This document shows, in pieces, positions 30,181 through 38,766 of a DNA stretch of 64,000 bases (the stretch's first letter is position 1; every line of letters starts with the position of its first letter). Location of the stretch: contig NC_013165.1 of assembly GCF_000023885.1 (NCBI RefSeq), forward strand, positions 2,604,001 through 2,668,000, given 5' to 3'. A program made the translations under genes and the position numbers. Source of the stretch: Slackia heliotrinireducens DSM 20476. Lineage in GTDB: Bacteria > Actinomycetota > Coriobacteriia > Coriobacteriales > Eggerthellaceae. The notes under the pieces are model-generated. The model searched no databases, had not been told where the DNA came from, and worked only from the letters and a program-made list of their open reading frames with translations.

Positions 30181-31365
30181 ATGCAGACGATTCTCGACTA
30201 TCTTGATTGGCGCGGCGACCTGTCGTTCACGACCAGCCCCTTCAACGAGGTGGACAACCTGATCCTGTCCGAGCTCGTCTACCTCGAGCTTGACGGCATC
30301 GTCGGCGGGCTGGAATCGGACGACTTCCCCACCTTGGCCCAAACCCAGAAGGAACTCGAGCGCCGCGGCGTCAAGCCGTCGTCGCCGATCAACAACCCGC
30401 ACATCCTGGCGAGCAAGGCCGCCGAAACCGACCGGTACCGCGACGTGCGGCTGGCCTGGTACCAGTCGAACGTCGATGCCGCGCGCCAGGTCCAATACGG
30501 CGCCGTCACCTTCTTCCTTCCGGACGGCACCGTCTACGTGGCGTTCCGTGGAACGGACAGCACCATTGTCGGCTGGCGTGAGGACTTCAACCTGTGGTAT
30601 TCCGACTCCACCCCAGGTCAGGACCACGCTCTCGCCTACCTGGATGCCGTTGCCGGCAAAACCCAGGGCGACTTGACGGTGGGCGGCCACTCCAAAGGCG
30701 GCAACCTGGCCATATACGCCGCAGCCTTCGGCCCCTACCGGGTGCGCGAACGCGTCCGCGTCGTCTACTCCAACGACGGGCCCGGGTTCAACAAGAAGAT
30801 CATCGCCACACCCCAGTACCACGCGGTGCTGCCGAAGGTGCGCCACATCATTCCCGAATCGTCGCTCATCGGCATCCTCATGGCGAACACCCCGATAAAG
30901 ACCATCGTCAAAAGCACGGCGTCCGGCGTCCAGCAGCACGACCCGTACACCTGGGCTGTGCTGGGAACCTCTTTCGAACTGGCCGACGAACTGTCTAGCA
31001 TAAGCCTGTTCGCCAACGACACCTTCAACCGTTGGTTCACCACCATGGATGAGGACAGCCGACGCACCGTGGTGAACGCGGTGTTCGATTCGTGGGAGGC
31101 ATCCGGCGCGACCACCGTGTCGGAGTTCAGAAGCATGAACCCTTCTGCATATGCGGCCATCCTGAAAAACGTTGCGGACCTGGACGCGGACACCAAACGC
31201 GAGGTGATGGACTCCGTAGGCAAGCTTTTCGAAGCCGGCGCCAGGACGTTTGCCGAGGGAGCGAAAAACCGCACCAAGGCAGCGCTGGAGCAGCATGTGG
31301 CCTCGCGCATCCAGACGAGCCGCGTGCAAATGCCCGCGCTTGAGCACCAGCGCCCGCAATCCTGA
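30181..31365 (+). CDS. DUF2974 (Mbeg1-like) alpha/beta hydrolase, paralogue 1
   Basis: 394 aa, ATG after AATAGGAG. The nucleophile elbow GGHSKGGNLA puts Ser at 171. FLPDGTVYVAFRGTDSTIVG and GWREDFNLWY are the conserved DUF2974 blocks. It is probably a cytosolic lipase/esterase-like enzyme of unknown substrate; no signal peptide is seen. The C-terminal ~90 residues are helical and charged. It is clearly paralogous to the gene at 51992. It lies 58 bp after the ADP-ribosylglycohydrolase with no terminator between, so they may be co-transcribed. Confidence 0.88.
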   Translation: MQTILDYLDWRGDLSFTTSPFNEVDNLILSELVYLELDGIVGGLESDDFPTLAQTQKELERRGVKPSSPINNPHILASKAAETDRYRDVRLAWYQSNVDAARQVQYGAVTFFLPDGTVYVAFRGTDSTIVGWREDFNLWYSDSTPGQDHALAYLDAVAGKTQGDLTVGGHSKGGNLAIYAAAFGPYRVRERVRVVYSNDGPGFNKKIIATPQYHAVLPKVRHIIPESSLIGILMANTPIKTIVKSTASGVQQHDPYTWAVLGTSFELADELSSISLFANDTFNRWFTTMDEDSRRTVVNAVFDSWEASGATTVSEFRSMNPSAYAAILKNVADLDADTKREVMDSVGKLFEAGARTFAEGAKNRTKAALEQHVASRIQTSRVQMPALEHQRPQS

Positions 31366-31434
31366 GACGGACGCCGTCTGTTCATGACAAACATATAACA
31401 GGCGTGTGTATACGCATACGGCCTATCTCTCCTG

Positions 31435-31443
31435 TGATATAAT
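31435..31443 (+). promoter_or_regulatory. extended -10 promoter of the four-gene operon
   Basis: TGATATAAT is an extended -10 (TGn plus TATAAT 31438-31443) in the most AT-rich stretch nearby, about 63 nt ahead of the operon's first ATG. No clear -35 is seen. Confidence 0.6.
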
Positions 31444-31455
31444 TAGCCTTATCTT

Positions 31456-31483
31456 ATTGTATACAATTTAATTGCTCGCAATT
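31456..31483. promoter_or_regulatory. two adjacent dyads in the operon leader
   Basis: ATTGTATACAAT (31456-31467, perfect palindrome) and AATTGC-TC-GCAATT (31470-31483) lie just downstream of the -10, between it and the ribosome site. Placement suggests a repressor operator or an early mRNA structure. Confidence 0.45.
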
Positions 31484-31505
31484 GTTTTATGAGGGGGATA
31501 CTCGC

Positions 31506-32867
31506 ATGGACCGTATTCTGGCTTTGATTGTCCGCTTTTGCGCGTTCCTCGGTCGGTTCACAAACCGCGTCTCATATCGGCCCCTCGACTCGCACGGCGC
31601 AGACGACCCGCTGAAAATCCTGCTCGTAGGGTACAACGGGGCCCGCAACACCGGATCCGACGTCCGTGTCGCGTCGCTCATTACCCAGCTCAACGACGAA
31701 TTCGGCAGCGACCGCATACGCATGTCCCTCATGTCGCTGGACCCGTCCAGCACCGAACCCTACCTCGCGCCCAACGTGGACGCCATCCCCTTTGACACCA
31801 TGTTCTTCCTCCCGCTGCTGAAAGCCTGCAGCACCCACGAAGTCATCATCTTGTGCGAAGGATCCATGCTCAAAAGCAAGTTTGCCAACGGCCTAACCCT
31901 GTTCATGTGCGAGGCGGCCGGCATCGCAAAAGCCCAGCACAAGCCCTGCATCGCCTATGGAGGCGAAGCAGGCGACATGGATGCCTTCGTCAGCAACACC
32001 GCCCGCAAGCTCTGCACCGACGCCAAGTTCATCGCCCGCACCGAAGGTTCCCGCGAAGCCATGCGGCAGCTGGGGTTCGAAGCCGAGCTGGGCACGGACA
32101 CCGCATGGACCTTCGACGGTGCCCACGCCTCCGAAAAGGCCCGTGACCTGCTTGTATCCCAGGGTTGGAACGGCACCCAGCCCCTGCTGGGGATCGCGGT
32201 CATCAACCCCTTCTGCTGGCCGGCCAAGCCTTCGCTGGGCAGACTCGCTAAATCGGCCCTGACAGGCACCTGGGAGCAGCACTACCAGAAATGGTATTTC
32301 TTCAGCTGGTCGGAAGAGCGCGCCCGCGCCTTCGAAACGTATTTGCAGAAAATGGCCCAGGCCGTCGAAGACGCCTGTGCGAAATACGGGTTCTTCCCCG
32401 TCATCATCGGCATGGAAAAGCTCGACCTGGAGGCCTGCACCAGGCTCGGCGCCATGACCGAACGCCCCCATGCCAGCATCTTGTCCAATAACCAGGACGG
32501 CTACGTCATCTCCGAGGTCATCGGAATGCTGAGCCGGCTGGCCACCTCGCGTTACCACGCGGCTGTGCTGGCCATCAAGCAGGGCATATGCCCGATCGGC
32601 GTGTCCATGGATGAGCGTCTGCAGAACCTGTTCGAGGATGCAGGAATCAGCAAAACCCTGCTCCTGAGCGTAAACGACCCAGCCCTGGAGACGTCCATGG
32701 CGAAAGCCCTGGACGAGGTTTCGAACCTGAGCCAGGAGAAGCATGCGGAACTGAGCCGCTATGTCGACGACCGCCGTGCGTTGTGCCGTCGCATGGCCGT
32801 TGACACCAAACGCTATCTTGCGGAGTTCAGCCCGCTTGCCCACGACCTGCACCTGAAGGAGGCCTAG
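31506..32867 (+). CDS. polysaccharide pyruvyl transferase family protein
   Basis: 453 aa from ATG 31506, with GAGGGGG 8 nt upstream. LLVGYNGARNTGSDVRVASL is the family's N-terminal glycine block; YGGEAGDMDAF, GTDTAWTF and SRYHAAVLAIKQGICPIGVS match its conserved C-terminal half. Members such as CsaB add pyruvyl ketals to envelope glycans, but many homologues have other or unknown donors. It is the first gene of a four-gene operon (4-bp gap to the next), suggesting it acts on a glycan or lipid-linked product made by the following enzymes (inference). Confidence 0.82.
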   Translation: MDRILALIVRFCAFLGRFTNRVSYRPLDSHGADDPLKILLVGYNGARNTGSDVRVASLITQLNDEFGSDRIRMSLMSLDPSSTEPYLAPNVDAIPFDTMFFLPLLKACSTHEVIILCEGSMLKSKFANGLTLFMCEAAGIAKAQHKPCIAYGGEAGDMDAFVSNTARKLCTDAKFIARTEGSREAMRQLGFEAELGTDTAWTFDGAHASEKARDLLVSQGWNGTQPLLGIAVINPFCWPAKPSLGRLAKSALTGTWEQHYQKWYFFSWSEERARAFETYLQKMAQAVEDACAKYGFFPVIIGMEKLDLEACTRLGAMTERPHASILSNNQDGYVISEVIGMLSRLATSRYHAAVLAIKQGICPIGVSMDERLQNLFEDAGISKTLLLSVNDPALETSMAKALDEVSNLSQEKHAELSRYVDDRRALCRRMAVDTKRYLAEFSPLAHDLHLKEA

Positions 32868-32871
32868 CCCC

Positions 32872-35685
32872 ATGCCCGAAACCAGCTGTCACCACGTTCT
32901 GCTCACCGGCGCCACCGGGTTTTTGGGCACGCGTCTGGCCGAAGAGCTCGTCAAACGCGGTCATGCGGTGTATGCCGTGGTGCGGCCTTCAGGCCAGCTG
33001 AATGCAGAACAGCGCCTGGCCCGCCTGTGGTACGAAAACGCCACACTGAAACCGGCACTGGGCACCCAGGTCGTGCCTTTGGACGGATGCATCACGAAGC
33101 ACATGCTCGGTTTGGACGAAACCACCGTCGACATGCTGTGCGGCCAGGTCGACACGGTGATCCACGCCGCTGCCGACGTCAACATCAACCAGACCATCGA
33201 GGTGCTTCGCCAGGCCAACGTGGAAGCCACCGGCCATATTCTCAATCTTGCCGAACGGATCAACGAACGTCGTCCGCTTCATCGGTTCATGCATGTGTCC
33301 ACGGCCTACGTCGCCGGCAAACGCAGCGGACTCATCGATGAGGAGTCCTTCGAAAACCGTGGGTTCAACAGCCTGTACGAGCAGACGAAATTCGAAGCTG
33401 AAGAACTGGTGCGCAGCCGGGCGGAATCCATGCCTGTCACCGTGCTGCGTCCTGCCCAAATGGTGGGAGACTCCTGCACGGGCTGGATCACCTCGTTCAA
33501 CACCGTGTACTACCCGCTGAAGATGTACCTGAAGGGCATGCTGCCGATCATCCCCGTCGCAGCCGATCAGAGGCTCAATATCGTGCCCGTCGATTACGTC
33601 GCTAGCATCGCCATGGCCGCATTGGACTCCCCCAAGGCCGTCGGAACCACCTACCACTGCACCATGCCCGCCCGCCTGCAGCCCACCGTTGGCGACATCG
33701 TCGAAACGACCCGCGGATGGGCTCGGCTGGAACTTGGCGTGAAGCTGCAAAAGCCCGTGTACGTAAGTTCGACCGAGCTGGGATCGTTGGGATCCAACCG
33801 CAACCTGAAGCGGGCTTCGCAAGAAAAGAAGAAGGGCTTTCTGTCGAACATGCTGGCCCTTTCTCCGTATTTCAACGACGAGCACGTCTTCTCGACCGAC
33901 AACACCGAGAAGCTCATGGGCACCTGCACGCTGAGCTGGCGCTCCATTCTTCCCGTAATGCTCAGGTACGCCGTCGACCGCAGCTTCCTGAAACACACGG
34001 GCCGCACTGCTTTCGAGCAGATGCTGGTCAGGTTGTCGTCGAAACGCAGCTCCATCTCGTATTTCGACGTGACGGACGAAGGCGTGCGCGAAACCACCGC
34101 CGACCAGATGAAGGAGCAGGTCCTCACGCTGGCCGCCGCGCTGCGTTCGGTGGGCATCCGGCCTGGCGACCGCGTAGCGCTGGTGGGCGTGAACTCTTCG
34201 GCCTACACGTCGGTGGATGCCGCCATCGGCTTGGTCGGAGGCGTAAGCGTGCCGCTGTACTACACGTCGCCCTATGCGGACATCCGCCAATTCGTGAACC
34301 GAAGCCACGCGAAACTCCTGTTCATCGGTATGGAGAAACTGGCGCGCGCCGCCGCCGAGGATGATCCGGGTATCCCCTGCGTGCTCATGCCGCCCATCGC
34401 CACCCTTGAGAACCTGCCCGAAACTATCACGCCTTGGGAAGTGTTTCTGGGCATCGGACGCACCGCCGATGACAAGGCGAAGGCCCTTCCTGCCGTCGGT
34501 TACGACGACATCGCCACCATTCGCTACACATCGGGCACCACCGGGCTGCCCAAGGGCACCATGTTCAACCACTACCAGTTGGCGTGGATGGGCCAGACCA
34601 TGCCCGAAATACTGGACTGGAAGACCCGCAACGCCCCCAATCGGTACCTGTCGTTTTTGCCCATGAGCCACGTGGTCGAGGGCATCCTTGTGGCCTACGC
34701 ACCGTTTTACCTGCTCAGCGATGTGGAAGTGTACTGCCTGAATGACTTCTCCAAACTGACCGAAACGCTGCCGAAGGTACGTCCCACCATCTTCTTCTCG
34801 GTCCCCCGCTTCTACGAGAAAGTCTGGAACCAGTTCGCAGCCACCGCCGCCGGCAAGCGCTACCTGGCCATGAAGCCGGGCCCGGCCAAGAAGGCCTTCG
34901 CCCGCATCTGCAAGCGCGCCATCCTCAAGAAGGCGGGGCTGGACGCATGCCGCCAGCTCATCGTGGGGTCGGCCCCTATCCGCAACGACCTGCTGGAAGC
35001 CTACCGCGAGCTGGGCATCGAAATCCATAACGCGTTCGGCCTGACCGAGGCCCCGCTCATCACCCTCAACCGCATGGGTCGAAACGACCTGGGCAGTTTG
35101 GGACAGGCCCTGCCCCAAACCGATCTGAAGATTGACGGCACCGGGGAAATTTGGATGCGCGGCCCGCAGCTGACCGTGGGATACGACGGCATGGGCCCCC
35201 TTCCCGTGGACGACGAAGGTTATTTCGCCACGGGTGATCTGGGATCGTTGTCGCCGCAAGGCAATGTGGTCATCCAAGGGCGCCGCAAGGAACTGGTCGT
35301 GACCTCTTACGGCAAGAATGTCCAATCCGAAAAGATAGAAGCCCTGGTCAAGTCAATCCCTGGTGTAAGCGAAGCCATGCTTGTAGGCGACGGGCGCCCG
35401 TACTGCACCGGCCTGATCTGGCTGGAAGACGACGCCGAGCTTGACGCGCAGGCTTTCGACGCGGCCATCCTGAAGATGAACGAAGGCCTTTCTCACCCCG
35501 AGATGCTCAAGCGTTGGGCCGTTATGGAACGCCCTCTGGCGCTGTCCAGCGGCGAGCTCACGCCCAACCTGAAGATGCGCCGCAAGGTCATTCTCGAGCA
35601 TTATCCCCAGGTCATCGAGGCGCTTTACGATGAATCCGGCCTGCATGGGGCCGTTGGCGCCATGCACATAGGAGCCATGTCGTGA
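32872..35685 (+). CDS. bifunctional acyl reductase (SDR, N-terminal) / AMP-forming acyl ligase (C-terminal)
   Basis: 937 aa. Residues ~7-360 are an extended SDR of the thioester/fatty acyl-CoA reductase type: LLTGATGFLGTRLAEELVKRG, VIHAAADVN, STAYVAG, and catalytic Y169/K173 in SLYEQTKFE. Residues ~375-930 are a long-chain acyl-CoA synthetase-like adenylating domain: YTSGTTGLPKGT (~552), GLTEAPLI, TGDLGSLSPQGN and a terminal LTPNLKMRRKVI. No carrier-protein domain is seen between them. Carboxylic acid reductases have the opposite order with a carrier domain between. It could activate a fatty acid and reduce it to an aldehyde or alcohol (inference). Its stop overlaps the next gene. Confidence 0.88.
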   Translation: MPETSCHHVLLTGATGFLGTRLAEELVKRGHAVYAVVRPSGQLNAEQRLARLWYENATLKPALGTQVVPLDGCITKHMLGLDETTVDMLCGQVDTVIHAAADVNINQTIEVLRQANVEATGHILNLAERINERRPLHRFMHVSTAYVAGKRSGLIDEESFENRGFNSLYEQTKFEAEELVRSRAESMPVTVLRPAQMVGDSCTGWITSFNTVYYPLKMYLKGMLPIIPVAADQRLNIVPVDYVASIAMAALDSPKAVGTTYHCTMPARLQPTVGDIVETTRGWARLELGVKLQKPVYVSSTELGSLGSNRNLKRASQEKKKGFLSNMLALSPYFNDEHVFSTDNTEKLMGTCTLSWRSILPVMLRYAVDRSFLKHTGRTAFEQMLVRLSSKRSSISYFDVTDEGVRETTADQMKEQVLTLAAALRSVGIRPGDRVALVGVNSSAYTSVDAAIGLVGGVSVPLYYTSPYADIRQFVNRSHAKLLFIGMEKLARAAAEDDPGIPCVLMPPIATLENLPETITPWEVFLGIGRTADDKAKALPAVGYDDIATIRYTSGTTGLPKGTMFNHYQLAWMGQTMPEILDWKTRNAPNRYLSFLPMSHVVEGILVAYAPFYLLSDVEVYCLNDFSKLTETLPKVRPTIFFSVPRFYEKVWNQFAATAAGKRYLAMKPGPAKKAFARICKRAILKKAGLDACRQLIVGSAPIRNDLLEAYRELGIEIHNAFGLTEAPLITLNRMGRNDLGSLGQALPQTDLKIDGTGEIWMRGPQLTVGYDGMGPLPVDDEGYFATGDLGSLSPQGNVVIQGRRKELVVTSYGKNVQSEKIEALVKSIPGVSEAMLVGDGRPYCTGLIWLEDDAELDAQAFDAAILKMNEGLSHPEMLKRWAVMERPLALSSGELTPNLKMRRKVILEHYPQVIEALYDESGLHGAVGAMHIGAMS

Positions 35686-36221
35686 GTCGCACGATTGGCA
35701 TACGCCTGATTGAGAGCGAATGGTTTCGGCGCATGCAGCTGCGTTGCATGACCAGGCTTTTCGCCAAGGCCGTAGGCGCACAGGCACCGGGGCTTTCCAA
35801 CATGGACGCCGACGGGATGCTGCACGCGTTCACCTCGTTCACCGTTCAGGAAACGGCACGGCTGGCAGGAACCGAAGCCGGCGATGCCGCCCGAGCCGAC
35901 CTGCGGCGACGGGCCTACAACCTGGGGCGTAGGCTTGCGGCCATGCCGCCGTTTTCAGGAATCGACAGGTTCGAGCTCGTCCAGGCGCTCTATCGGAACA
36001 TCGACATCACCCTGGAAGGCGCCCTGCCGGGCCAGATAACCATGTGCCCGTGCTCGTTCAGCACATACTATGCCCCTTCGGCGTGCCTGTTCATGTCCGC
36101 CTTCGACGAGGGCATCATGGCGGGCATCGTGGGCGAAGGCGCTTTGACGTTCTCATGCCGCATCACCGAAGGAGCGCCCTGCTGCACAGCCGCATTCGAA
36201 CAGGAAGGAATTCTATTATGA
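35682..36221 (+). CDS. small Cys-rich protein, ATC-hydrolase/V4R-like
   Basis: 179 aa from GTG 35682, which overlaps the preceding TGA (GTGA); AGGAG lies 7 nt upstream. The C-terminal ~60 residues hold five to six cysteines: MCPCSFSTYYAPSAC, FDEGIMAGIVGEGALTFSC and ITEGAPCCTAAF. The pattern resembles L-2-amino-thiazoline-4-carboxylate hydrolase-like and V4R small-molecule domains, which often sit beside redox or lipid enzymes. I cannot tell which. The N-terminal half is helical and basic. It is translationally coupled to both neighbours. Confidence 0.65.
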   Translation: MSRTIGIRLIESEWFRRMQLRCMTRLFAKAVGAQAPGLSNMDADGMLHAFTSFTVQETARLAGTEAGDAARADLRRRAYNLGRRLAAMPPFSGIDRFELVQALYRNIDITLEGALPGQITMCPCSFSTYYAPSACLFMSAFDEGIMAGIVGEGALTFSCRITEGAPCCTAAFEQEGILL

Positions 36222-37501
36222 AGAATGCCATCGTCATAGGTGCAGGTGCCGGCGGTTGCGCGGCCGCACGCGAACTTGTCGGGCTCGGGTGGCATGTGGC
36301 CCTTGTCGAGCGGGGATCCGAGTTCAAACCCTTCGCATACCAGCTCAAGACCTTCGAACCTTTGCGCCAAGCAGGCCTGTTTGTGGACACCCGCATGATC
36401 CAGGCGGTCTTCGGCGACATGCGCATCGACAAAATGGACAGCATGCCCCTGGTCAGAGGACGAGGTATAGGCGGCACCACCCACCTCGCCACCGCGAACG
36501 CACTTCGCTACGACGATGACCTGAAGGCTCTTGGCATAGATTTAGATGACGAATTCGACGAACTTGCCGACCTGGTCCCTCAATGCACAAACCACCAACG
36601 TCGCTGGTCGGACCTGACCCGGCAAACGTTCGAAGCATTCGAGGCCGAAGGCTTCGACCCCCGGGTTATGCCGAAGATGGTCGACGAAGACCGGTGCGTC
36701 GCCTGCGGCAAGTGCGTTCTGGGCTGTAAGCTTGGAGCCAAATGGACCGCCGACAAGCTGCTGGAAGGCCTTGACCAAAGCCTGGTCGACGTTATGGAGA
36801 GCTGTACGGTCACCAAGTTGACCTGCGAAAACAACCATGTGACAGGAGTGGTATGCCGTCAAGGGCTCCGCACGGTAACCCTCGACGCCGATCTTGTGCT
36901 GCTCGCGGCCGGAGGTGTTGGCACACCCAAGATCCTGGACCGCTCAGGCATTCCCTCCAAACCCACGTTCTTCGTCGACCCCGTGCTCTGCGTGGCTGCG
37001 CCCTGGGAGAACGCCCGGTTCGACAGCGAAATCCCCATGCCCTTCGCTTCGCAGCGCGACGGATACATTCTCTCGCCGTATTTCGACTTTCTGAGTTTCT
37101 TCTTCGACAAGAAATGGCGGGCGCCATCGAAGGACATCTTCAGCCTGATGATCAAATTCGCCGATGACGAGGTCGGATCCGTAACGGCTCGCACGGTATC
37201 CAAACCGCTGACCGACCACGACTACGAGACCATGGCCCGAGCCGTCGACGACTGCCGACGCATCATGGGGCGGCTCGGCATTCGGGAATCCGACACCTTC
37301 TACGGCATGCTGAACGCCGGGCATCCCGGCGGCGCCTACCCGTTGACCCAGGCAGAGGCGGAAACCCTCCATCATCAGGAGTTGCCCGACAACCTCTATC
37401 TGGCCGACTCGACGCTGTTCAACGCCTCGATGGGCAACCCGCCTATCCTGACCATCATGGCACTGGCCAAAAAGGTCGCCAAAACCGCCGCTGCTCGGTA
37501 G
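36218..37501 (+). CDS. GMC-family FAD oxidoreductase with [4Fe-4S]-type cysteine motif
   Basis: 427 aa from ATG 36218 (ATGA overlap with the previous stop; AGGAAGGA upstream). The FAD motif is VIGAGAGGCAAARELVGLG. A C-x2-C-x2-C-x3-C motif (C160, C163, C166, C170; CVACGKCVLGC) is followed by GAKW, as in long-chain alcohol oxidase-type GMC proteins. The C-terminal GMC block is NAGHPGGAYPL...ADSTLFNASMGNPPILTIMALA. It probably oxidises or reduces a hydrophobic alcohol or aldehyde. In this operon the acyl reductase is the obvious metabolic partner. Confidence 0.87.
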   Translation: MKNAIVIGAGAGGCAAARELVGLGWHVALVERGSEFKPFAYQLKTFEPLRQAGLFVDTRMIQAVFGDMRIDKMDSMPLVRGRGIGGTTHLATANALRYDDDLKALGIDLDDEFDELADLVPQCTNHQRRWSDLTRQTFEAFEAEGFDPRVMPKMVDEDRCVACGKCVLGCKLGAKWTADKLLEGLDQSLVDVMESCTVTKLTCENNHVTGVVCRQGLRTVTLDADLVLLAAGGVGTPKILDRSGIPSKPTFFVDPVLCVAAPWENARFDSEIPMPFASQRDGYILSPYFDFLSFFFDKKWRAPSKDIFSLMIKFADDEVGSVTARTVSKPLTDHDYETMARAVDDCRRIMGRLGIRESDTFYGMLNAGHPGGAYPLTQAEAETLHHQELPDNLYLADSTLFNASMGNPPILTIMALAKKVAKTAAAR

Positions 37502-37566
37502 CGACGCGCGTCGTAGCGGCGAAGCCCCGTAAACCGTTCGAAAGCGTCTGGCCTTCAGCGTGCAGG

Positions 37567-38766
37567 TTATTTCATCTCGCCGATGACCTGCAGAAACGTG
37601 TATGCGTTCTGCAGTGTGGCAGGATGGCCTTCTTCGGCGAGGAGTTTCTGAATGCGTCCCAGATGTCCCAGGAACCGAGAATAGCTCGGCCACGTGCATG
37701 CGCCGGACAGAGACAAGTCCATGCCCAGTTTCCTGAACCCGGCCTCGGCCGCTTCGGAGTCAACAGGCACATAGGCCTGCGCGTCCTTCAGGAACAGCAG
37801 GTGCGAAACCATACCGTAATAGCGGACGAACAGGGATTTCATGGCTTTAAGGAATGCTTCTGCGGACATCTCGTCCTTGTAGAAGGACATGAGCGGACCT
37901 TCGAACAGGAGATTGCCCCGCTGGCGGTCTTTGCGACGCAGCACCGCCGCTATGTTCGGCACCCTGCCCTCGAAGCGGCTCCAGGGAGCTTCATCATCGT
38001 CGATAGTTGCCTGAATCTTGGCAACCAGCGCACCCGTCCCCACCATATCCTCAGTCCAGCTGGGGATATCCAAATCACCAAGCCACACATCGCGCGCCGT
38101 CAACCGGCTTTCCTCTAAGGCGGACACCACAACGTTGTCGAACAGCGGCGCGCCTGGATCGGCGTCTTCTACATACTGGCAGAACTGTGCGAAACACTCC
38201 TTGAACGCAGCAGCATCGATCGACTGCACCGTCACGACCGCCGAACCCTGCTTCACAACGCCAGCAGCCTCTCGCTTCGACGTTACCGCAGAGGTCTTTT
38301 CCCTACGCGCCGCCGTACGCGGGGCAGACGTTTTCCTCTCAGCAGGTTTGCGAACCGCACGAGGCGCTGACTCCGGCTCTTTGGCGGGAATGAGGTTCCT
38401 GAACTGCGCAACGGCGCCTGCACTCAAGTTGCCGATGGTCTGAATCTCCTGCTCCCACAATGACATCGCATCGGTTATAGATTTGCTTCCGTACAGGGCC
38501 TTCAGCAATCCAGAATCAGGTTTACGGTACCCCTTGTCAATCACGACCAGGGCGGGAAGCAGCGGCTGGTTGTTCTTCCTGCACCATGCGACGGCATCTT
38601 TCAGGGCTTCCTTGTCGCCGAACGGCACGCGAGGCCGGCCGCCTAGCATGCCGTTGAGTTCGACGGCATCAACCGTCAGGTTCTCGCGGCGGCCGCTTTG
38701 ATAGTCCGTGACCACTCCGACAAGCCGCACCAACACATCGATAGCTACAGGAGAAAGGTTCGCCAT
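37567..38766 (-). CDS. hypothetical protein with central basic linker
   Basis: 399 aa, family not recognised. Residues 1-~125 are a compact alpha/beta region (LVRLVGVVTDYQSGRRENLT). Residues ~130-175 are Lys/Arg/Ala/Pro/Thr-rich and histone-H1-like. Residues ~180-399 form a helical domain ending in LGMDLSLSGACTWPSYSRFL, a pattern I have seen near McrB-like restriction proteins, though I cannot confirm a relation. No signal peptide or membrane helix. It is a monocistronic gene convergent with the four-gene operon. DNA binding is a guess from the basic linker. Confidence 0.75.
   Translation of the reverse strand: MANLSPVAIDVLVRLVGVVTDYQSGRRENLTVDAVELNGMLGGRPRVPFGDKEALKDAVAWCRKNNQPLLPALVVIDKGYRKPDSGLLKALYGSKSITDAMSLWEQEIQTIGNLSAGAVAQFRNLIPAKEPESAPRAVRKPAERKTSAPRTAARREKTSAVTSKREAAGVVKQGSAVVTVQSIDAAAFKECFAQFCQYVEDADPGAPLFDNVVVSALEESRLTARDVWLGDLDIPSWTEDMVGTGALVAKIQATIDDDEAPWSRFEGRVPNIAAVLRRKDRQRGNLLFEGPLMSFYKDEMSAEAFLKAMKSLFVRYYGMVSHLLFLKDAQAYVPVDSEAAEAGFRKLGMDLSLSGACTWPSYSRFLGHLGRIQKLLAEEGHPATLQNAYTFLQVIGEMK

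Follow-up and report, generated by a model that had tools for sequence, protein, structure and literature searches.

Which pathway could bring together a pyruvyl-transferase-like enzyme, a reductase fused to a ligase, a small cysteine-rich protein and an iron-sulfur GMC oxidoreductase? This question is raised by four adjacent genes in a stretch of 64,000 nucleotides (the window) from Slackia heliotrinireducens RHS 1T, a rumen bacterium of the family Eggerthellaceae with a single-contig genome of 3,165,038 bp. All four genes lie on the forward strand. The first, at 31506-32867, codes for a protein of 453 aa resembling CsaB and the polysaccharide pyruvyl transferases (PST-like). It is followed by a fusion, FARlig, of an N-terminal thioester/acyl-CoA reductase and a C-terminal acyl-AMP ligase (32872-35685, 937 aa), by a small protein with a predicted V4R/TRAPP-Bet3 fold (35682-36221, 179 aa) and by a GMC oxidoreductase with an Fe-S motif (36218-37501, 427 aa). 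As originally predicted, the genes are joined by a 4-nt gap (32868-32871) and two 4-nt overlaps, GTGA at 35682-35685 and ATGA at 36218-36221. Our answer, held tentatively and at a little short of even chances, is that this cassette moves horizontally and serves to reduce a carboxylic acid that is hydrophobic and, most likely, long-chained. No description of this gene combination was found in openly licensed PMC papers.

Conservation and spread of the cassette

The order FARlig, small protein, GMC gene was kept at 17 loci. Ten are in the window's own family (f1: the window, G031, G033, G113, G114, G116, G117, G119, G128 and G129), five in genus g73 of family f4 (G305, G330, G336, G353 and G383) and two in distant genomes, G448 and G521, of families f41 and f36. 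The G129 fusion is interrupted and cut at a contig end, and contig ends also cut the G033 fusion and the G448 GMC gene; in G127 the cassette is split between contigs. The original prediction had named homologues scattered without synteny as the outcome that would refute it; with the order kept at 17 loci, it is not refuted. With inferred starts, an NTGA stop/start overlap joined FARlig to the small-protein gene at 13 of 16 loci (the 17 minus G033) and the small-protein gene to the GMC gene at 10 of 17 loci (the same 16 plus Candidatus Formimonas warabiya). The unit is more than chance, because gene order is kept across families and the stop/start overlaps across lineages.

Co-occurrence of the four families in Eggerthellaceae genomes had been proposed as a check. 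The core order does recur in the family, but it is not general there: the GMC gene (E<=1e-10) was present in 14 of 138 family genomes, which belong to four of 48 genera; the other 11 genomes of the genus to which the window belongs all lack it. FARlig (E<=1e-80) was found in 11 of the 138 and the PST-like gene (E<=1e-20) in eight, in each case exclusively among the 14 with the GMC gene. Naive hypergeometric values, uncorrected for kinship, were 6e-14 and 1e-9, respectively. Absences among the 14 are soft, because several assemblies are incomplete. Of 396 genomes drawn from the class, 13 had the GMC gene (E<=1e-20), which adds the five of g73 and a weak match in G176. The latter, where the GMC match has 30% identity and the stretch fetched around it matched neither the fusion nor V4R, was not counted as a cassette. 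The small protein was found in three of 396 drawn genomes of the phylum (the window's genome, G448 and G521). Among 27 genomes of the order of G521, the fusion (E<=1e-120) was found in G521 only.

Across 14 genomes, the distances between pairs of genomes correlated among the three core proteins with r of 0.80-0.89. The corresponding trees are limited to genomes with all three core genes in the alignments used and omit G033, G036, G118, G125, G127, G129, G448 and Formimonas. G336, a member of g73, grouped with the cassettes of g44, which belongs to the other family, both in the tree for FAR (86/92 and 81/90) and in that for GMC (96/97). This grouping away from its own genus points to joint transfer of at least FARlig and GMC. 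In the small-protein tree, branching around G336 was not resolved. Long branches were observed for G521 in all three trees and for the window in two of the three. Overall, as judged from sequence comparison, the cassette is a real, old and mobile unit, with a deeply conserved three-gene core and an accessory PST-like gene. The four genes predicted to act together do form one unit in the window, while the fourth proves to be an addition to the core.

Indeed, no PST-like gene was found at E<=1e-20 in six of the 14 family genomes with the GMC gene. Three loci (the window, G448 and G521) have the PST-like gene 5′ of the fusion, and five (G033, G113, G127, G128 and G129) have it 3′ of the GMC gene; G031 and G036 carry it on a separate contig. 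The link of the PST-like gene with the core thus survives rearrangement. In g73, a search that covered the fetched loci gave no PST-like gene next to any of the five cassettes. All these comparisons make it an accessory to the three-gene core.

The PST-like protein scored 24.6 bits against PF04230 alone and 25.8 bits with its frame neighbours, for a gathering cut-off of 25.3; two distant homologues scored 61.5 and 44.3. It is the sole PF04230 match in the whole genome and matches TIGR03609 (CsaB) with E 8e-19. R349-Y350-H351 is invariant across seven PST-like sequences. A PDB sequence search with the PST profile gave no useful match. These matches fit a cell-wall unit in which the protein would pyruvylate a wall glycan, as CsaB does, for anchoring of SLH-domain proteins, the other genes being passengers. 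Against this, the CsaB score is 68.1 bits for an equivalog cut-off of 213.1, the genome holds one weak SLH match (22.4 bits), and the core occurs without the PST gene whereas, in the family, the PST gene was found in no genome without GMC. We consider this the least probable of the explanations weighed here. The attachment of a product to an envelope glycan, suggested in the original prediction, draws on the PST-like gene only, which the same six genomes lack at E<=1e-20.

The flanks of the cassettes vary. Among families whose members were printed, frames overlapping cassette genes being excluded, no further gene family was common to more than four of 18 loci; the widest was ABC-type, named by eye, at four. 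A gene that looks TetR-like lies at least 1 kb from three cassettes (L020 3210-3893 in G119, L023 10513-11187 in G114 and L024 7732-8370 in G129) and is a possible regulator. In G336, about 58 extra residues are inserted in the ligase part of the fusion (L075 9345-12839, minus strand) and about 22 in the small protein (L075 8758-9348, minus strand).

Outside the Actinomycetota, Candidatus Formimonas warabiya (Bacillota) has adjacent V4R and GMC genes, with 50% identity for GMC, and no FARlig match at E<=1e-20 in its genome. Its locus (L002 4640-10281) reads TetR-like (by eye), CrtI-like flavoprotein, radical SAM/SPASM, small membrane-type protein (by eye), V4R and GMC. L002 was the only locus returned by a contig scan with the GMC protein based on short exact peptide patterns, which is non-exhaustive. 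Among plasmids, the GMC protein had a single, distant match (26%), from Photobacterium.

Likely acid activation, acyl reduction and alcohol chemistry

The family labels first given to the genes hold. FARlig matched PF07993 (NAD_binding_4, E 1.6e-56), PF00501 (AMP-binding, E 2e-55) and PF23562 (AMP-binding_C_3, E 1.8e-8); no PP-binding (carrier) domain was listed up to E 0.1. In the reductase part, the GxxGFxG motif (G13-G19), S143/T144, Y169 and K173 are invariant in 15 fusions, which gives FARlig the Rossmann motif and the S/T-Y-K triad required in FAR/thioester reductases. In the ligase part, TSGTTGxPKG, E726, D789, R804 and K901 are likewise invariant, and the functional adenylation motifs of carboxylic acid reductase are present. 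These residues are the ones expected to be catalytic.

The GMC protein matched PF00732 (GMC_oxred_N, E 1.8e-14) and contains the FAD motif. Its cysteine motif CVACGKCVLGC (codons 160-170, 36695-36727 on the plus strand) has the C-x2-C-x2-C-x3-C spacing of the 4Fe-4S type, and C160, C163, C166 and C170 are all invariant in 16 sequences; the cluster itself is putative. In the C-terminal part, H369 is found in 16 of 16 sequences and N407 in 15, with Leu in G521. The GMC profile matches glucose dehydrogenase (6a2u, E 1.4e-5). Acid activation, acyl reduction and Fe-S GMC alcohol chemistry, the chemistry suggested at the outset, thus agree with active-site residues that are invariant save for N407.

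The chemistry of the parts is well supported, and from it we infer a pathway. Using ATP, the ligase domain would turn the acid into an acyl-AMP and then a thioester. The N-terminal domain would reduce the thioester with NAD(P)H to the aldehyde, possibly to the alcohol. The V4R/Bet3-fold protein may bind the greasy acyl, aldehyde or alcohol intermediate and present it to its partner. The Fe-S GMC enzyme, whose gene is coupled in translation to that of the V4R protein, would carry out alcohol/aldehyde redox, with electrons probably leaving through its cluster rather than to oxygen. Where present, the PST-like enzyme might modify the product or its acceptor. The substrate, the direction, the carrier role, the electron acceptor and any role in this last step are put forward as the presumable ones. 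If so, some Actinomycetota would make a product of lipid type that has yet to be described.

Another use of a fatty alcohol or aldehyde would be the synthesis of alkyl or vinyl ether lipids, with the fusion acting like Myxococcus ElbD, as part of an ether-lipid or plasmalogen pathway. ElbD, too, is described as joining an N-terminal reductase to a ligase (PMC9131029), and dimethyl acetals and some fatty aldehydes are reported in several Eggerthellaceae (PMC12494484). For the strain itself, a 2009 source gives little on lipids beyond a predominant C18:1 (PMC3035243). Within the operon, however, no ACP (acyl carrier protein), acyltransferase or alkylglycerone-phosphate-synthase domain was listed, and the GMC gene occurs in just four of 48 genera of the family. 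Moreover, two fused open reading frames (ORFs) outside the window (L055 428-5419, 1663 aa; L056 749-5272, 1507 aa) each contain two BcrAD stretches and DUF2229. By this domain content they are candidate PlsA-type plasmalogen synthases, other members of the enzyme family being possible. A length of 4,248 to 4,920 bp is given for single-gene plsA, about that of these two ORFs (PMC12838417). With these two PlsA-like candidates found elsewhere in the genome, the plasmalogen reading lost its lead. We regard it as unlikely; the ether-type product first envisaged is possible, but less needed.

The direction of the pathway could also be the opposite. In a catabolic unit, the GMC enzyme would oxidise a hydrophobic alcohol from diet or host (a long-chain alcohol, a sterol or a bile-type compound) and the fusion would handle the acid or aldehyde so formed. 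A match to cholesterol oxidase (E 1.3e-7) indeed covers positions 387-421, in the C-terminal part of the GMC profile, and the distribution is patchy and mobile. On the other side, enzymes that join an ATP-dependent ligase to a reductase in one chain normally work reductively. The unit also lacks a transporter or degradation gene, since no flanking family, among those whose members were printed, is common to more than four of 18 loci. Oxidation of this kind is therefore a doubtful explanation, below ether-lipid synthesis in our estimate.

The small protein and its predicted fold

If the cassette reduces a hydrophobic acid, what would the small protein contribute? The protein, first noted as cysteine-rich, does have exactly three cysteines (C124, C135 and C168) that are invariant in an alignment of 18 sequences, 17 from Actinomycetota and one from Bacillota. 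Further invariant residues include D142, G144, G148, R160, T162 and G164. An AlphaFold2 model built from an 11-sequence alignment had a mean pLDDT of 92.1 and a pTM of 0.88. Of the PDB chains compared by Foldseek, PoxR matched it best, in the domain that senses phenol (E 8.2e-4, probability 1.00, TM 0.51), followed by Bet3/TRAPPC3 and other V4R-type chains. VIA-align placed TRAPPC3 with covalent palmitate on top (6aq3_B, Z 11.1, 140 residues, 3.4 A); Bet3 and MopR came next with Z of about 10-10.5, ranks within about 1 Z being ties. The uppermost ranks all went to Bet3, TRAPP, MopR and PoxR, and the list consisted mostly of TRAPP, phenol-sensor, BcsD and H-NOX chains.

V4R domains, like Bet3, are described as having glycine pairs three residues apart in helices 2 and 5, and are thought to bind hydrophobic ligands (PMC2253512). 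In the small protein, G144xxxG148 in helix 132-150 is present in 18 of 18 sequences; helix 65-87 has one invariant glycine only, G82. Because the match list is uniform and the glycine pair and the cysteines are present, we accept membership in the V4R superfamily. The description as a cysteine-rich protein is thus changed to that of a confidently predicted V4R/TRAPP-Bet3-fold protein of the hydrophobic-ligand-binding type. An orphan family of small proteins is thereby connected with the ligand-binding fold of V4R and Bet3 and placed in a defined enzymatic setting; given that link, stand-alone V4R function becomes testable with two or three proteins.

The C-terminal motif of the small protein also raised the possibility of an ATC-hydrolase-type enzyme (PF14196), with the operon acting on sulphur-containing heterocycles. 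An archaeal domain is described as related to HNOB, V4R and ATC hydrolase, with a three-Cys cluster common to it and the latter two (PMC5847659), and two of 11 small-protein sequences matched PF14196 weakly (best E 0.013). The window's own protein, however, had no PF14196 match up to E 10, and hhalign against nine PF14196 proteins was weak (probability 10.8%, E 0.0028). The genome also has three PF14196 members above cut-off elsewhere. The hydrolase is thus a very improbable identity for the small protein. The three ATC-hydrolase genes, L041, L042 and L043, lie outside the window and scored 81-93 bits. Other matches among homologues of the small protein were regarded as chance: PF12318 (FAD-SLDH, one homologue, E 0.089), DUF6628 (two members, best E 0.0078), UBact and DUF4785.

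A precedent for a protein-bound intermediate is offered by BchJ, a V4R protein. Long named a vinyl reductase, it is described as enhancing a bacteriochlorophyll reductase, and roles as carrier, scaffold or chaperone have been discussed for it (PMC4432870). A bolder version of acid reduction by the cassette is modelled on the palmitate covalently bound in TRAPPC3 structure 6aq3. The small protein would replace the phosphopantetheine carrier: the ligase would load the acyl group onto an invariant Cys in a hydrophobic channel, the fused reductase would release the aldehyde and the V4R protein would pass it to GMC. We see this as a long shot. If true, the carrier protein would do its chemistry with no need of phosphopantetheine, and a relative of a fold that tethers vesicles in eukaryotes would have a part in biosynthesis.

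Several points weigh against acid reduction with the small protein as a ligand carrier. TRAPP I function reportedly needs neither the hydrophobic channel nor the palmitoylation of Bet3 (PMC4811894), which speaks against the carrier idea and makes the TRAPPC3-palmitate match suggestive at most. The small protein of the window matched no Pfam or NCBIfam family and a PDB sequence search with it gave no useful match, so that the V4R assignment depends on the predicted fold. In Foldseek, PoxR was the only match at E<=0.001, TM-scores were about 0.5, and VIA-align Z values of the size found may mirror a common arrangement, chiefly in helical proteins. The AlphaFold2 model of the GMC protein was poor (pLDDT 67). 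G118 has a GMC gene, with no FARlig or V4R gene on its contig, and G125 and G036 have fragments only and odd FAR-GMC hybrids. Formimonas, with V4R and GMC genes and no FARlig found at E<=1e-20, shows that these two genes do not depend on the reductase for their pairing. To combine a reductase with an alcohol oxidoreductase in a single pathway would also seem partly futile if both acted on the same group. Finally, the acid is presumably fatty, and substrate and product are putative. As for the hybrid frames, in L028 (2718-3533, minus strand) and L030 (9906-10508, plus strand) part of the FAR domain is fused in frame to part of GMC, in incomplete assemblies; either assembly chimeras or deletion relics would account for them.

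Putative control region and relation to known systems

An AT-rich promoter with dyads had been proposed ahead of the PST-like gene. The leader (31366-31505) is indeed AT-rich, with 41.4% G+C as compared to 60.7% in the whole window, and contains a tool-detected perfect 12-bp palindrome, ATTGTATACAAT (31456-31467, no strand), a possible operator. A sigma-70 consensus scan, however, called no promoter in it. Reading by eye gave a candidate extended -10 element, TGATATAAT, at 31435-31443 on the plus strand. It is flanked by the half site TGTATAC at 31407-31413 and its reverse complement repeat at 31459-31465, possible operator copies. The palindrome has one site in the window at up to two mismatches, for 0.48 expected; because 34 of 100 shuffles also held at least one such site, it is not strong alone. 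No Rfam family matched in 31300-37700. The PST-like gene most likely starts at ATG 31506 rather than at the upstream TTG 31482, because MDRIV or VDRIV begins four of six homologues there. The four genes are presumably expressed as a single co-transcript. The operon has 61.2% G+C, close to the window's value, and thus no base-composition sign of recent import. Directly upstream on the same strand lies an Mbeg1-like gene (PF11187, 30181-31365), with no homologue beside the cassettes elsewhere.

How, then, does the cassette relate to known systems? The PST-like protein has in common with CsaB and the PF04230 pyruvyl transferases a borderline superfamily match, a GYNGARNTG start motif and the R-Y-H motif, which we take to be kin to those of CsaB; it differs by a score far under the CsaB equivalog cut-off.

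With the V4R/TRAPP-Bet3/XylR_N proteins, the small protein would have in common a mixed helix-sheet fold matching Bet3, PoxR and MopR, together with G144xxxG148 and the three invariant cysteines, although in the window it lacks a sequence-family match. The zinc ligands of DmpR are given as C151, E172, C177 and C185 (PMC7264223). In our reading of the spacing, C135 and C168 align with C151 and C185, whereas the position of C177 is occupied by R160 and C124 is extra.

The GMC protein resembles the Fe-S GMC oxidoreductases (FAD-glucose dehydrogenase and fatty alcohol oxidase) and cholesterol oxidase in its FAD motif, its His-Asn-type C terminus and its Cys cluster. FAD-glucose dehydrogenase has a small gene directly upstream, an order that may be likened to V4R-GMC. 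The differences are the ferredoxin-like Cys motif, the partner of predicted V4R fold and the length, 427 aa for listed GMC-type chains of about 495-702 aa.

Carboxylic acid reductase (CAR, NF041592) likewise combines acyl-adenylate formation and NAD(P)H-dependent thioester reduction in one chain, and the ligase part of FARlig aligns with it with E 3.8e-53. The domain order of CAR is adenylation, phosphopantetheine carrier, reductase (A-PCP-R). In contrast, the FARlig reductase is N-terminal (R-A order), a phosphopantetheine carrier domain was not found in it, and its score is 180.5 for a cut-off of 1300.

ElbD, from the elb operon of Myxococcus xanthus, also has an N-terminal FAR1-like reductase and an acyl-CoA synthetase in one protein. 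As described, it continues with ACP and AGPAT-like acyltransferase domains (PMC9131029); compared with this description, FARlig consists of the reductase and synthetase parts only. The partners also differ: those listed for the elb operon are a HAD-like, an epimerase/dehydratase-like and an unknown protein (PMC9131029), whereas here the fusion stands with the V4R-fold, GMC and PST-like proteins.

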